In this document: positions 8,965 to 23,021 of the stretch, piece by piece
Layout: each line of letters opens with the position of its first letter
How positions within the stretch are numbered: position 1 is the first letter of the stretch
From: Candidatus Gastranaerophilales bacterium
Lineage (GTDB): Bacteria; Cyanobacteriota; Vampirovibrionia; Gastranaerophilales; Gastranaerophilaceae
DNA: 64,000 bases
Direction: 5' to 3'
Assembly: GCA_016282705.1 (NCBI GenBank)
Contig: JAEELO010000083.1
Span: forward strand, 21,877-85,876
Notes under the pieces: generated by a model
What the model was told of the DNA's origin: nothing
Database searches by the model: none
Seen by the model: the letters and a program-made list of their open reading frames with translations, nothing else
Position numbers and translations under genes: made by a program

Positions 8965-9705
8965 ATGATAAGTTTTCTCGGGCTTTGTGTACAAAATTTA
9001 ATACAAACAATGAAGTACATTTTAAAAGGAAATGTTAAATTGTCGTCTGTATTTTCGCAAGCCGCTATGATAAGCTATGACTCTCTTCCGATAAGTTTAT
9101 GCATAGTTTTTATTGCAGCGGTTGTAATCGCATTGCAGGTATCAAAACAATTTTTGATGTCGGGTGCTGAAAGTTATGTCGGCGGTTTTCTTGCCGTTGC
9201 TTTAATAAGAGAATTAGCTCCCGGATTTGCCGCACTTGCTATAAGCGCAAGAGCAGGTACCGCAATAAGTGCGGAAATAGCAAATATGCAGGTTACTTCT
9301 CAGGTAGACGCAATAAAAACATTAAAAGTTGACCCGATAGGATATTATTTTGCACCGAGAATAATTGCAGGTGCAATAACAGTCCCAATGGTGGTTATTC
9401 TTGCCGAATTATTCGGAATTATAGGTGGTATGATGATTTCATATATTACAATAGAATTGCATCCGAATCGTTATATGACCTCAGTATGGTCTTTTTTGAA
9501 TACAAGAGATATTTATATAAGTATTTTAAAAGGTTTTATATTTGGTATAATAATTCCGTTAATATGCGCAACTCAGGGCTATGAAACATCAGGCGGTGCA
9601 AAAAATGTAGGTATATCTACAACAAAAGCCGCCATTAAATCGACTGTTTTCTTATTAATGGCGGATTTGATAATAACTTTTATATTTTATGTTAATTTCA
9701 CTTAA
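8965..9705 (+). CDS. MlaE-family lipid ABC transporter permease
   Basis: REL.PxxxALxxSARAGTAISAEIANMQVTSQVDAIKTLKVDPIGYYFAPRIIAGAITVP is characteristic of MlaE/TGD1 permeases. Confidence 0.92.
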   Translation: MISFLGLCVQNLIQTMKYILKGNVKLSSVFSQAAMISYDSLPISLCIVFIAAVVIALQVSKQFLMSGAESYVGGFLAVALIRELAPGFAALAISARAGTAISAEIANMQVTSQVDAIKTLKVDPIGYYFAPRIIAGAITVPMVVILAELFGIIGGMMISYITIELHPNRYMTSVWSFLNTRDIYISILKGFIFGIIIPLICATQGYETSGGAKNVGISTTKAAIKSTVFLLMADLIITFIFYVNFT

Positions 9706-10796
9706 TCGGAATCGCTGCCGACATTAGCGCTTATACCTGCTAATCTTCTGAGTTCTTCAGGTCTTTGTGATTTAGCAAGAGCATCCTCTGCCGTTACAAG
9801 TTTTTTCTTGTATAAATCTGCAAGTGCTGTTTCAAGAGTTTGCATACCCTGACCTGCACCTGTTTGAATAGCTGAATATATTTGAGCTGATTTACCTTCA
9901 CGAATCATATTTGAAACAGCATTGTTTTTTACTAAAATTTCTTGAGCCATAACACGACCTTTTTTTGTTCCGTCCGGCTGTAATTTTTGAAGAAGTGTTT
10001 GAGCAAATACGGCTTCAAGGCAACCGCCTAATTGAACACGAATTTGCTGCTGCTGACCTTCGGGGAATACATCTATAATACGGTCAATAGTTTGGCTGGC
10101 AGATGATGTATGCAATGTTCCGAACACCAAGTGACCTGTTTCTGCTGCCGTCAGAGCAAGTCCTATTGTCTCGATGTCACGCATTTCGCCGACCAGAATG
10201 ATATCCGGATCTTCTCTTAAAGATGATTTCAATGCATTTGCAAATGACCTTGTATCCTGACCGAGTTCTCTTTGGTGAATTACACTTTTCTTTGATTTAT
10301 GAACAAATTCAATAGGGTCTTCAATTGTAAGAATATGTTCGCTTCTTGTTTCATTGATATGGTCTATCATAGATGCTAAGGTTGTAGATTTACCGCTACC
10401 TGTAGGCCCTGTTACAAGTATTAGACCTCTCGGACGTTCTGTAATTGTTTTTACTACTTCAGATAATCCCAATGATTCAAAAGAGGGGATATCCGTTGTA
10501 ATTGTTCTGAAAGCTGCAGCATATGTACCGCGGTTTTTATAAATATTTACCCTGAAACGCCCTAAACCTGATATACCATATGACATATCAAGCTCCCAAA
10601 CTTGTTCCAGATTTCTTCTTTGTTCATTGTTTAACATTGGGAAAAGCAACTCTTCCACATCTATCGGAGTTAACGGTTCATATTTTGTTCTTAAAAGATT
10701 TCCGTCAACTCTTATTATAGGCGGCATTCCTGCAGAAATATGCAAGTCACTTGCTTTATACTGTATAACCTCTTTTAATAAGTCATCTATTACCAT
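9702..10796 (-). CDS. pilT: Twitching motility ATPase PilT
   Basis: ASDLHISAGMPP, Walker A GPTGSGKSTTLASMID, GEMRDIETIGLALTAAETGHLVFGTLHTSSA. Confidence 0.96.
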   Translation of the reverse strand: MVIDDLLKEVIQYKASDLHISAGMPPIIRVDGNLLRTKYEPLTPIDVEELLFPMLNNEQRRNLEQVWELDMSYGISGLGRFRVNIYKNRGTYAAAFRTITTDIPSFESLGLSEVVKTITERPRGLILVTGPTGSGKSTTLASMIDHINETRSEHILTIEDPIEFVHKSKKSVIHQRELGQDTRSFANALKSSLREDPDIILVGEMRDIETIGLALTAAETGHLVFGTLHTSSASQTIDRIIDVFPEGQQQQIRVQLGGCLEAVFAQTLLQKLQPDGTKKGRVMAQEILVKNNAVSNMIREGKSAQIYSAIQTGAGQGMQTLETALADLYKKKLVTAEDALAKSQRPEELRRLAGISANVGSDSD

Positions 10797-18906: not shown

Positions 18907-21312
18907 TTATTTTTTCTGTGCTGCTTGTTTTTCAAGTTTTGCAAGACGTTTTTCAAATGCTTTGTTTTGTTCCTTTAACTGTTTGTTTTGTTGTTCAAGA
19001 GCTGTAATTCTCTTATCCAAACCTGTAATTTTAGCAGTTAAATCTTGTATTTGTTTGCATAATTCTTTGATTGAATTAACCATTGCATAGAAAATGTCTT
19101 CTGTCCTTATTCTCAAATATCCGTCTTCATCTTTAGAAACAGCATTTGGGAATATTTTTTGCAATTCCTGAGCGATTACACCAACGTGAGGTGTTTTCTT
19201 TTCATCTTTTTTATATGTGAAGTTTTTAACCTGCAATGCATTGATTTCTTTCAATCCTGCAGTGTTATCACCAGATACGTTTTTCAAACGAATATCGGAT
19301 GCTGTTGCTAATTGTTGTATTTGTTGACGTATTTCTGTAAGGGCATCTTTTATAGCTTGAAGAGAATTTTTTAAAGAACCATTTGCGTTACCATCAAAAA
19401 TATTTGCAGTTCCTCTAACATTTATATCACCTTTTACATCTATTTGAACATCATTATTATCTACAATTGTTAAATTATTAAATAATATTCTACTTGTATG
19501 AGCTGGTACAGTACTTGGTAGAGTAGAAGTAGCATGTACTGCAAATAATTCATTTGCTTTGAAGAATAAACCATATTTTATTGTATATGGATTATTATTA
19601 TTTTCTCCTGCATAAAAATCAAAATCTTCACCGATTCTAACTTCTCTTCTTGTAGGTGACGAGAAATCGTTTATTTTAACAGCATTTTTATTTGAATCTG
19701 TAGATAAAATAATTTCCTTTGCTGACGGATTTACAGTAATCATATCATTAATTAATAAAGGATAATTATTTCCTTGTTCAGAACCGTCACCTTTAGGACT
19801 TTCTGCTCTTATAGCAACTATAGCCTGATTATCTATTTTTGATCCCCATTGCCATACTTCTTTTGGGAAATCCAGTGTAAGCATATTGTTAAAGTTAATA
19901 TCGTTATAATAAGTATCAGTCGAACTTGTATTATATCTGTCAAATGATTGAATATATGCTGTTCTGTTAGGATATGGTGCGCTGAATTGGAGAGTTGTAG
20001 AAGCTTCATTATAATTGCTGATTATACCGCCGACATCTCTTAAATTGAAATTAGCAATACCAAAACGACCTTTTTCATGACTAGCATCTTGTTCTTCATA
20101 TCCTGTTACTCCGGATAAAGATAAAAATTCAAATATATTTGCACTTCCGTTAAACGGTCTAAAAGCAACACGTTTAGCATTAATTGTTAATTCTTTATCA
20201 ACACCGCTTTCGTATTTCATATGTCCGGTAATTATTGAAGGTTCAAAGTACTCATCTTCTCCTACCATTTTCGGAACACCTATATATAGTCCGTAATTTT
20301 TAGTAAGAGTACTACCCGACATTGGTCCTGTTTCAAAACCTGCACCGTAACCTATACAAACATTTCCCTTACCTTCTGTTACAAGTCCACAAGACCACTG
20401 ACCTACAGCGGTGTTTCCTTTACCGCTTGTAAGTTCGGATAAACTGGCACTACCTATAGCAGTATTTTTATCTCCTGTTTTATTGTTATACAAAGAGCCA
20501 TATCCAACGGCTGTATTATCTCTGCCTTCAATATTATATCTTTGAGACAATGCACCTATAGCTGTATTATTTACCGGTGTTTTAGAATCGTCATAACCCA
20601 AATCATACAATGTTCCAAACCCAATAGCTGTATTATTGTGCCCGTGAATATTTTTTGTAAGGGTTTTTCTTCCTAATGCAGTATTTCTTTTACCGTCATA
20701 GTTGTTAGTTAAAGCAAGGTGACCTATTGCAGTATTTTCACCAAATATGGTTGTGCTTTCAGGATTTTGATTTTGCAATGAACCTATACCTATTGCAATA
20801 TTACCCGGATCCATAGAGATTCTTCCGGCATAATTAAATTCCGCTTCACCTGTATTTTTTATAACCGTATTATAAAAAGAAATATGAGAACTTAATGTCG
20901 CAGGTTCATCCTGATATGCTTTTCTTTTTAATATTACAAATTTATCACCTTTGTTTGAAAATTTAATTTTATTTGCTTCCGGAGCTGTCCAGCTTTCGGT
21001 TAAAGTAATATTTTCATCAGGATCTGTCGGTGCTGTTGCATCATCTATTACTAATTTTGTTGAATCAGTATCCGGAATTCTGTCAAGACCTAATAATGCT
21101 GCTTGATTACTTCCCATTGTGGCATAAATACTATTATTCTGGTCGCTCCAACGCCAAATATTTTCTCTTGAAGCTCCGTTTTTCTTTGTTATTGTAGGAA
21201 TTGCAGCTGATAAAACAATACTTATAATAAGTAAAGAAATCAATAGTTCTGCAAGAGAAAAACCCTTTTGTTTTTTATTCATCATCAGTTTCTTTCCATT
21301 TCTTATAATCAA
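18907..21312 (-). CDS. Prepilin-type N-terminal signal protein with YadA-head-like repeats and C-terminal peptidase S74 intramolecular chaperone domain
   Basis: N-term MNKKQKGFSLAELLISLLIISIVLSAAIPTI (type IV prepilin motif); central xNTAIGxxxL repeats; C-term SDIRLKNVSG...FTYKKDEKKTPHVGVIAQELQKIFPNAV (S74) plus coiled coil. Real start probably 21282-21285 (MMNKKQKGFSL). Confidence 0.88.
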   Translation of the reverse strand: MIIRNGKKLMMNKKQKGFSLAELLISLLIISIVLSAAIPTITKKNGASRENIWRWSDQNNSIYATMGSNQAALLGLDRIPDTDSTKLVIDDATAPTDPDENITLTESWTAPEANKIKFSNKGDKFVILKRKAYQDEPATLSSHISFYNTVIKNTGEAEFNYAGRISMDPGNIAIGIGSLQNQNPESTTIFGENTAIGHLALTNNYDGKRNTALGRKTLTKNIHGHNNTAIGFGTLYDLGYDDSKTPVNNTAIGALSQRYNIEGRDNTAVGYGSLYNNKTGDKNTAIGSASLSELTSGKGNTAVGQWSCGLVTEGKGNVCIGYGAGFETGPMSGSTLTKNYGLYIGVPKMVGEDEYFEPSIITGHMKYESGVDKELTINAKRVAFRPFNGSANIFEFLSLSGVTGYEEQDASHEKGRFGIANFNLRDVGGIISNYNEASTTLQFSAPYPNRTAYIQSFDRYNTSSTDTYYNDINFNNMLTLDFPKEVWQWGSKIDNQAIVAIRAESPKGDGSEQGNNYPLLINDMITVNPSAKEIILSTDSNKNAVKINDFSSPTRREVRIGEDFDFYAGENNNNPYTIKYGLFFKANELFAVHATSTLPSTVPAHTSRILFNNLTIVDNNDVQIDVKGDINVRGTANIFDGNANGSLKNSLQAIKDALTEIRQQIQQLATASDIRLKNVSGDNTAGLKEINALQVKNFTYKKDEKKTPHVGVIAQELQKIFPNAVSKDEDGYLRIRTEDIFYAMVNSIKELCKQIQDLTAKITGLDKRITALEQQNKQLKEQNKAFEKRLAKLEKQAAQKK

Positions 21313-21613
21313 AATTTATATCTTTTATTTTAATGCCCGTTTCGTGAGCTTTTTTATTCATTTTATCTACCAATTTTGCTTTTTCTAAATATAATTCATT
21401 TGCAACAAATGAATCGGAACATACTATTGTTAGTTTATTATCGTCAGAAAAACTATGAACTTTAGCTAAATTTATAATTTTTTTACCGACAACCTCCTGC
21501 CAAAAATTTTGTAATACTTCAATATTTTGAATTTTTTGGGGATTATAATTAAAATCAAGTTCTTTAATTACATCCTCAAGCAGTTCGAAATTAGAATAAT
21601 TTATTCTTTTCAT
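21275..21613 (-). CDS. DUF721-like protein
   Basis: VLQNFWQEVVGKKIINLAKVHSFSDDNKLTIVCSDSFVANELYLEKAKLVDKMN. Confidence 0.75.
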   Translation of the reverse strand: MKRINYSNFELLEDVIKELDFNYNPQKIQNIEVLQNFWQEVVGKKIINLAKVHSFSDDNKLTIVCSDSFVANELYLEKAKLVDKMNKKAHETGIKIKDINFDYKKWKETDDE

Positions 21614-21677: not shown

Positions 21678-22337
21678 TTATACATCAAGAATATTTTTTA
21701 CTTGTGCAATTATTTTTTTATGAATTTCTTTTTCGCTTAAAGTGCCGTCAATAGATACAAAACCGTATTCGTTTATCATCTTATGGTATTCTTCAATACA
21801 TTTACTTTGATAAATTTGGAAACTTGTATAAAAATCGTTACTTAGACCTATATCTCTTCCTGATTCCCAATAATCCAGCCCCGTTGTTCCTATAATTCTT
21901 TTTAACAAGGTTTTAACAGGAACGTCCAAATAGAATACCATATCAGGTTCAGGTGCATAATCATAAAGATTTTTTAACCATTCTATGTCATGACCTCTTA
22001 CAACATCTCTTGCATATGCCGTATATATGTATCTGTCTAAAATTACTACAAATCCAGCTTTTAAAGCCGGAATAATTACCTGCTCAAGCCTGTCTGCAAA
22101 ATCTGCTGCATATAAAAGGCTGAATGTGGTTGCATTTAAGAGATTTCTTTCTTTTGCATCATTAATTGCATCCGCAATAAATTTTGATGTTTTCCATTCA
22201 CTAACCATAACTCCGTATGACTGGTCTTCTATCCATCTTTTTAAACGACCGATTTGAGTTGATTTTCCGGAACCGTCTGTCCCTTCTATTACTATTAATA
22301 AGCCTTCATAGCCATGTTTTGATTTGTATTTTACCAT
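21678..22337 (-). CDS. tmk: Thymidylate kinase family protein (copy 2 of tandem pair)
   Basis: LIVIEGTDGSGKSTQIGRLKRWIE...DRYIYTAYARDVVRG. Confidence 0.88.
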   Translation of the reverse strand: MVKYKSKHGYEGLLIVIEGTDGSGKSTQIGRLKRWIEDQSYGVMVSEWKTSKFIADAINDAKERNLLNATTFSLLYAADFADRLEQVIIPALKAGFVVILDRYIYTAYARDVVRGHDIEWLKNLYDYAPEPDMVFYLDVPVKTLLKRIIGTTGLDYWESGRDIGLSNDFYTSFQIYQSKCIEEYHKMINEYGFVSIDGTLSEKEIHKKIIAQVKNILDV

Positions 22338-23021
22338 TTATAAAATTATTCCTTTCGGAGCAAGTATTTTTTTAACTTCTTCTCTGAAAAATACTTGTTT
22401 TTTATGAATGCTTTCATTTGCATCTATTTCTACAAGTCCGTATTCATCAATCATTTTTTTGTATTCATCATTTACTCGTTTTTGGAAAATTTTGTAACTT
22501 TCATACGGGTCAGGACTTATTTTTAAATCCATACCGGCTTCATAAAATTTAGGTGCTCTGTTAGAACAAATTCTTTCAAGTGAAACGTCTTCGGAAACTC
22601 TAAAATACAGTGTCAAATCAGGTTTAACGGCAAAACCGTATACTTTTCTTACCCAGTCTCTGTCTACACCTCTTGCAACATCACGTGCAAATGCCGTATA
22701 TACATATCTGTCTGCCAGTACAATAAAACCTGCTTTTAAAGCCGGAATAATTACCTGTTCAAGTCTGTCGGCAAAATCTACCGCATGAAGAAGAGAAAAG
22801 GTTCTGGGACTTAATAAATTTTTCTTTTTTGCAAGTTTTGTAGTTTGGGATATTAAATCGGACGAATTCCATTCCGTAAAAATAACGTCCTGTTTAAGTG
22901 ATTTTAGCCAATCACGAAGTATAACAAGCTGAGTTGACTTGCCTGAACCATCTATACCTTCAACGCAAATAAGTGTCCCCGGTAATTTATGCGGTTTATT
23001 TAATCTCGATTTTGTTTTCAT
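22338..23021 (-). CDS. tmk: Thymidylate kinase family protein (copy 1 of tandem pair)
   Basis: LICVEGIDGSGKSTQLVILRDWLKS...DRYVYTAFARDVARGVDRDW. Confidence 0.88.
   Translation of the reverse strand: MKTKSRLNKPHKLPGTLICVEGIDGSGKSTQLVILRDWLKSLKQDVIFTEWNSSDLISQTTKLAKKKNLLSPRTFSLLHAVDFADRLEQVIIPALKAGFIVLADRYVYTAFARDVARGVDRDWVRKVYGFAVKPDLTLYFRVSEDVSLERICSNRAPKFYEAGMDLKISPDPYESYKIFQKRVNDEYKKMIDEYGLVEIDANESIHKKQVFFREEVKKILAPKGIIL

Follow-up and report, generated by a model that had tools for sequence, protein, structure and literature searches.

Modular pilins that carry a Peptidase_S74 domain behind a prepilin signal (IPR012902-IPR030392) belong to the 15 commonest modular pilin architectures, and this combination has been read as a peptidase (Raynaud et al. 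2021, PMC8179133). Characterised S74/ICA domains cleave themselves once they have trimerised (PMC8326128, PMC3742443), and their Ser-Lys dyad is defined by S911/K916 in endoNF and S587/K592 in MYRF (PMC8326128). Among the minor pilins of type IVb pili, TcpB and CofB are homotrimers located at the pilus tip (PMC9565799, PMC8179133), so that a trimer on a pilus has precedent. The HIJK tip complex includes a K subunit that lacks Glu5 (PMC9934059), and in Neisseria a poly-G tract of G9-G20 within the reading frame switches the pilus-associated proteins PilC1 and PilC2 on and off (PMC5953494).

Here we analyse a prepilin-S74 gene in a window of 64,000 nucleotides (the whole stretch of DNA under study) from a Gastranaerophilales genome. 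Its features are collected in Table 1. The open reading frame runs from 18907 to 21312 on the minus strand; the TTG start under which it was listed falls within dciA, and the ATG at 21280-21282 is the likely start of the gene. In most same-genus loci with enough flanking sequence the block order is tmk-tmk-dciA-prepilin-S74. The two thymidylate-kinase-like genes stand side by side ahead of dciA (window 21678-23021), an arrangement that is kept across the genus.

Table 1. Features of the prepilin-S74 gene and of related genes in the window
Feature	Position	Strand	Basis
Prepilin-S74 gene	18907..21282	-	791 aa; ATG falls in the final codons of dciA
Leader peptide MNKKQKG, which prepilin peptidase is predicted to remove	21262..21282	-	Translation; N_methyl and TIGR02532 matches
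Alpha-1 N-terminal helix FSLAELLISLLIISIVLSAAIPTITKKN, Glu at mature position 5	21178..21261	-	Profiles; AlphaFold helix 2-29 of the modelled chain
Conserved post-helix segment IWRWSDQNNSIYATMGSNQAALLG, predicted fibre start	21085..21159	-	Alignment A1
Nine NTAIG-type repeats, period 17, beta-structured head	20350..20802	-	Motif count; head model; viral S74/tail-fibre fold matches
Middle region, beta-rich, variable among relatives	19393..20349	-	Predicted strands, confidence dropping towards the C-terminal part; alignment A1
Predicted stalk helix directly before the S74 domain	19309..19380	-	Modelled secondary structure, low confidence
Peptidase_S74 intramolecular chaperone, dyad Ser662/Lys667 in SDIRLK	19138..19299	-	Pfam; sequence resembles MYRF ICA and phage fibre chains
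C-terminal coiled coil	18910..19104	-	Coiled-coil profiles; modelled chain helical at 721-784
dciA, upstream neighbour	21275..21613	-	DciA profile E 2.1e-11; synteny
PilT-like T2SSE ATPase, filament machinery, not linked to the prepilin-S74 gene	9702..10796	-	PF00437 E 1.4e-47

The initial annotation had proposed a class III prepilin signal at the N-terminus, and the profiles bear this out: Pfam N_methyl (PF07963) matched residues 3-28 (E 4.7e-8) and TIGR02532 matched residues 5-28, both above cut-off. By these profiles the window protein has the hallmarks of such a signal, namely a small residue at -1, a hydrophobic residue at +1, Glu at +5 and a hydrophobic helix. Among 181 distinct prepilin-S74 relatives Glu5 was found in all, and the -1 residue was Ala in 93, Gly in 87 and Ser in one. 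The same Pfam and TIGR02532 searches returned no pilin-domain profile above cut-off in the window protein. A canonical alpha-1 helix has about 50 residues and is followed by a beta-sheet pilin domain, whereas the helix predicted here covers only residues 2-29 of the modelled chain, with low confidence beyond.

At the other end of the protein, Peptidase_S74 (PF13884) matched residues 662-715 with an E value of 4.2e-14, above the Pfam cut-off; the initial annotation had named the lack of such a match as a refutation. The SDIRLK motif is followed by HVGVIAQ and then by the coiled coil, and the positions of Ser (0) and Lys (+5) agree with the dyads of endoNF and MYRF. By sequence similarity, the nearest solved chains to the S74 region are the MYRF ICA, a phage fibre and a neck appendage protein. 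The proposed S74 chaperone, with its intact dyad and C-terminal coiled coil, is supported by the profile searches.

Between the two termini lies a body that had been likened to a YadA head with about eight repeats. The repeats themselves are evident: residues 161-307 hold nine N[TVI][AC][IVL]G motifs, 17 or 22 apart, while 20,000 shuffles of the protein gave a mean of 0.02 motifs and a maximum of 2. The YadA label had to be given up, since a YadA_head Pfam match was absent from the window head at E values up to 10 (one relative reached E = 3), and a fold search of the head model against the PDB gave nothing convincing. The C-terminus consists of S74 and coiled coil by Pfam, with no YadA membrane anchor. 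In a viral structure library, by contrast, the head model (pLDDT 84, pTM 0.84), on which the fold comparison rests, matched 66 viral proteins at E <= 0.001, including phage intramolecular-chaperone proteins, tail fibres and giant-virus S74 proteins, with viral S74 and fibre folds at E 5e-10. A corresponding search with the full-length protein was uninformative because its AlphaFold model, a monomer, is poor (pLDDT 66). Among the PHROGs, the repeats matched tail spike phrog_4636 (E 5.3e-26) and the S74 part matched tail fibre phrog_1980 (E 8.7e-18); in a relative from family f7, phrog_1980 covers residues 52-435 of 460, which is nearly the whole ectodomain. On this evidence from profiles and models, the head is identified as a phage tail-spike/fibre-like body. 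A recent capture from a phage was considered and rejected, since the closest phage relatives of the S74 region share about 41% identity or less.

Genes for filament machinery are present in the host. The PilT gene that the initial annotation placed in the window is indeed there, as a PilT-type T2SSE ATPase (Table 1), and elsewhere in the genome we found a secretin (E 1.9e-37) and two T2SSF genes, one of which shares a gene cluster with the secretin. The window also contains LpxC, LpxA, LpxD and FabZ-type genes, which indicates an outer membrane. A prepilin peptidase (PilD), for which the initial annotation had suggested a check, was not found in the host's own metagenome-assembled genome (MAG), which is 91% complete, and was present in 36 of 36 good-quality relatives. 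One short contig (C73 of G000, loci L094 and L032) carries a sigma-54 type regulator and a classical pilin in a coding style that looks unlike the rest, and is possibly contamination of the MAG (7.6% reported).

The gene is widely kept in the order. All 34 same-genus genomes searched contained S74, and in nearly every one the gene is open at a fixed place, usually beside dciA. Class-wide, S74 was found in 163 of 383 genomes with up to 12 copies. Across the order we counted the 181 distinct prepilin-S74 proteins with a detection pattern that demanded neither Ser, Lys nor Glu5, and SD.R.K was present in 180 of them. Of 243 distinct S74 ORFs obtained with a wider detection, 185 had a prepilin signal and 48 ran open into a contig end; several of the remaining 10 are frame-broken versions. 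All these counts come from sampled genomes and from loci picked from best-scoring lists, with related species not being independent. The best 80 matches resolved to 78 loci, whose informative titles were mostly Gastranaerophilales or Melainabacteria, such as Candidatus Adamsella avium. In other cyanobacterial classes S74 was rare (11 genomes), and the sole locus read from them (L263) has no prepilin signal. The paralogue expansion that had been suggested for the host genome is seen in relatives only, since profile searches of the host genome gave one S74 gene alongside nine N_methyl matches. Some assemblies (G139, G133, G182, G279, G333) have many S74 genes at contig ends with similar offsets, as though near-identical paralogues had broken the assembly. 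Three records titled Fusobacterium sp. CAG:439 (L199, L235, L254) carry prepilin-S74 genes and appear to be members of Gastranaerophilales.

Relatives showed two features that the initial annotation does not mention, G tracts and sets of three genes. In other genera of the family, a G9-G11 tract precedes the prepilin signal in 22 prepilin-S74 genes, in most of them inside the leader that prepilin peptidase would cleave off, and about one third of the tract loci (L121, L122, L124, L126, L137, L143, L147, L152, L155, L157, L160, L163, L166, L168, L175, L268, L270) are in frame as assembled. In loci L105-L184 and L264-L282, the 24 kb directly upstream of 98 genes contained 22 coding-strand tracts; the remaining part of the 514 kb contained 10, which put the expected number at 0.24. 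Some of those 10 likewise precede S74 prepilin genes. The Poisson P of about 1e-35 for this upstream excess overstates the certainty, since there is dependence among the genes and the zones were drawn only once the first tracts had been noticed; the excess is nonetheless large. Relative to the ATG with a Shine-Dalgarno sequence, 7 of the 22 tract genes were in frame, 14 out of frame and one unclear, with start codons chosen by rule such that individual calls may err; a 7:14 ratio is close to the 1:2 expected when tract length is free. Paralogues with identical leaders differed in state within single genomes: in G163 a G10 copy is on and two G11 copies are off (L124, L168), and in G118 a G11 copy is on and a G10 copy is off (L126, L166). 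Homopolymer assembly errors could alter single tract lengths. Within the genus of the window, the extra paralogues L040, L072 and L134 have the prepilin part and the fibre plus S74 in different frames with the junction at a G9-G10 tract of the linker that corresponds to the post-helix segment of Table 1, and in L047 and L053 the linker G tract leaves the reading frame intact. No G tract of 9 or more was found in or before the frame of the window gene. From these sequence patterns we infer slipped-strand phase variation of prepilin-S74 genes in relatives, which fits a surface-exposed product and suggests, for several of these relatives, a switchable surface attachment fibre. The leader in tract-bearing relatives would be about 30-50 residues, which is long for a prepilin and counts against the reading that we prefer below. 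In two loci, L148 and L150, a stretch common to two paralogues and translating to ...ASIIHVILNLFQDLLTG lies between the G tract and the prepilin signal, and resembles an inserted repeat element.

In two families of the order, f6 and f7, three prepilin-S74 genes stand in tandem, with a fourth prepilin, lacking S74, behind them (L056 5015-9822 and L067 3683-9605). Three S74 matches were also found in each of four genomes of genus g36 and in most genomes of genus g23, where a few have two or four and one has none listed. As S74 domains act as trimers, such sets raise the idea of a heterotrimer. The three paralogues of f6, f7, g23 and g36 may, tentatively, be the chains of an obligate heterotrimeric phage-like fibre on the three uppermost positions of a type IV filament, with other genera having either one gene (a homotrimer, the form that the window gene would take) or a phase-variable repertoire; we think this possible, though well short of an even chance. 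Unlike in the HIJK complex, where the top subunit lacks Glu5, all three chains of the f6 and f7 sets keep it. In a tree of 105 S74 columns the f7 chains formed one group (89/95), support for grouping the f6 chains was weak, and the three g23 types were separated; many forks are open and the bootstrap values had not settled. The tree permits, but does not prove, a repeated origin of the three-chain sets. The convergent S74 gene pairs of g23 looked invertible and had raised the idea of a shufflon, which was dropped because a conserved S-adenosylmethionine synthetase-like gene occupies the interval in several species and no recombinase was seen.

Our favoured reading, to which we give a probability of about 0.68, is a minor type IV pilin that serves as a trimeric phage-fibre-like adhesin on a type IV filament and carries a self-removing S74 part. 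The short prepilin helix would insert each chain in the inner membrane with the ectodomain in the periplasm, where the coiled coil and the S74 domain would bring three chains together and fold the beta-rich fibre. The S74 part would then cut itself off at Ser662. After presumed leader processing, a type IV filament or pseudopilus would take up the three N-terminal helices as it grows, most likely at the tip, and passage through the secretin would expose the fibre as an adhesin.

Some observations count against this reading. The 91%-complete MAG yielded no prepilin peptidase, the full-length monomer model is poor, and the window gene carries no G tract. A globular domain of the canonical pilin type is not evident behind the 29-residue helix, and the gene is surrounded by housekeeping genes, outside any pilus operon. 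These last two points would suit a helix that is a mere membrane anchor, with the trimeric fibre staying in the inner membrane or set free in the periplasm rather than joined to a filament, as would the numerous other prepilin-like proteins scattered across the genome. An anchor has little need for Glu5 and a small -1 residue kept in 181 proteins, however, and the phase-variation tracts of relatives point to a surface product, while the f6 and f7 genes are kept beside a fourth prepilin; we therefore consider the anchor unlikely. Glu5 is needed for joining a growing filament and is present in all chains, which could also place the protein along the length of the filament instead of at its tip, and shaft positions for modular pilins are not excluded by PMC8179133. 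Such a decorating subunit is quite improbable, given that a helical shaft would hardly accommodate a trimer whose chains each measure several hundred residues and that the trimeric minor pilins TcpB and CofB sit at the tip (PMC9565799).

The 2021 suggestion (PMC8179133) would make the S74 part a pilus-presented peptidase effector that acts on outside targets. It is the published reading of the architecture, but it agrees poorly with the self-cleavage of characterised S74/ICA domains after trimerisation (PMC8326128, PMC3742443) and with the place of S74 here, behind a phage-fibre-like body as in phage fibres; we regard it as very unlikely. That the whole ectodomain is phage-fibre-like could also mean a disused prophage tail-fibre remnant that became joined to a prepilin start by accident. 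This was already disfavoured by conservation, as the gene stays open at its fixed place in nearly every genome of the genus, with the dyad intact in 180 of 181 proteins; its best phage relatives are only 41% identical, no phage genes adjoin it, and the idea is scarcely credible.

The prepilin-S74 architecture itself is already known (PMC8179133). We found no other literature linking S74 with a prepilin in a search made mostly without subscription journals and preprints, and, as far as the literature searched shows, the new points are the reading of S74 as a trimerising chaperone behind a phage-fibre-like body, the extent of the family across the order, the proposed switching by poly-G tracts and the sets of three genes. 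If the favoured reading is right, bacteria carry on their type IV filaments a receptor-binding fibre of the phage type together with its trimerising, self-removing chaperone, and the published interpretation of prepilin-S74 proteins shifts from peptidase to chaperone. It would also give the Gastranaerophilales, common but little-studied gut bacteria, a candidate adhesin repertoire with on/off switching in several genera, and would open to test how a helical filament accommodates a three-fold fibre and whether the three-gene sets supply its three chains.

Like the modular type IV pilins PilB and PilC of Streptococcus sanguinis, the window protein joins a prepilin signal to a large extra module, in a combination listed in PMC8179133. 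That survey assigned S74 a peptidase role without analysing it, and the module here is a complete phage-fibre-like body with a trimerising chaperone, without an evident pilin globular domain. With CofB and TcpB the protein would share trimer formation by a minor pilin at the tip; these differ in domain make-up, neither an S74 chaperone nor an NTAIG fibre having been reported for them. Neisseria PilC1/PilC2 have a poly-G switch like the one proposed for the relatives, the window gene itself being tractless, but PilC lacks S74 and is not itself a pilin. Like the fibre proposed here, that of YadA-type trimeric autotransporters is a trimeric surface fibre with short NTAIG-like repeats, but they have the head profile and membrane anchor missing here and use another export route. 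Phage endosialidases, tail-fibre S74 proteins and the MYRF ICA share with the window protein the S74 domain, its Ser-Lys dyad and a coiled coil, all behind a beta fibre that is predicted to be trimeric here as well, and differ from it at the N-terminus, which joins the virion in phages, is a DNA-binding domain in MYRF and is a pilin helix here.
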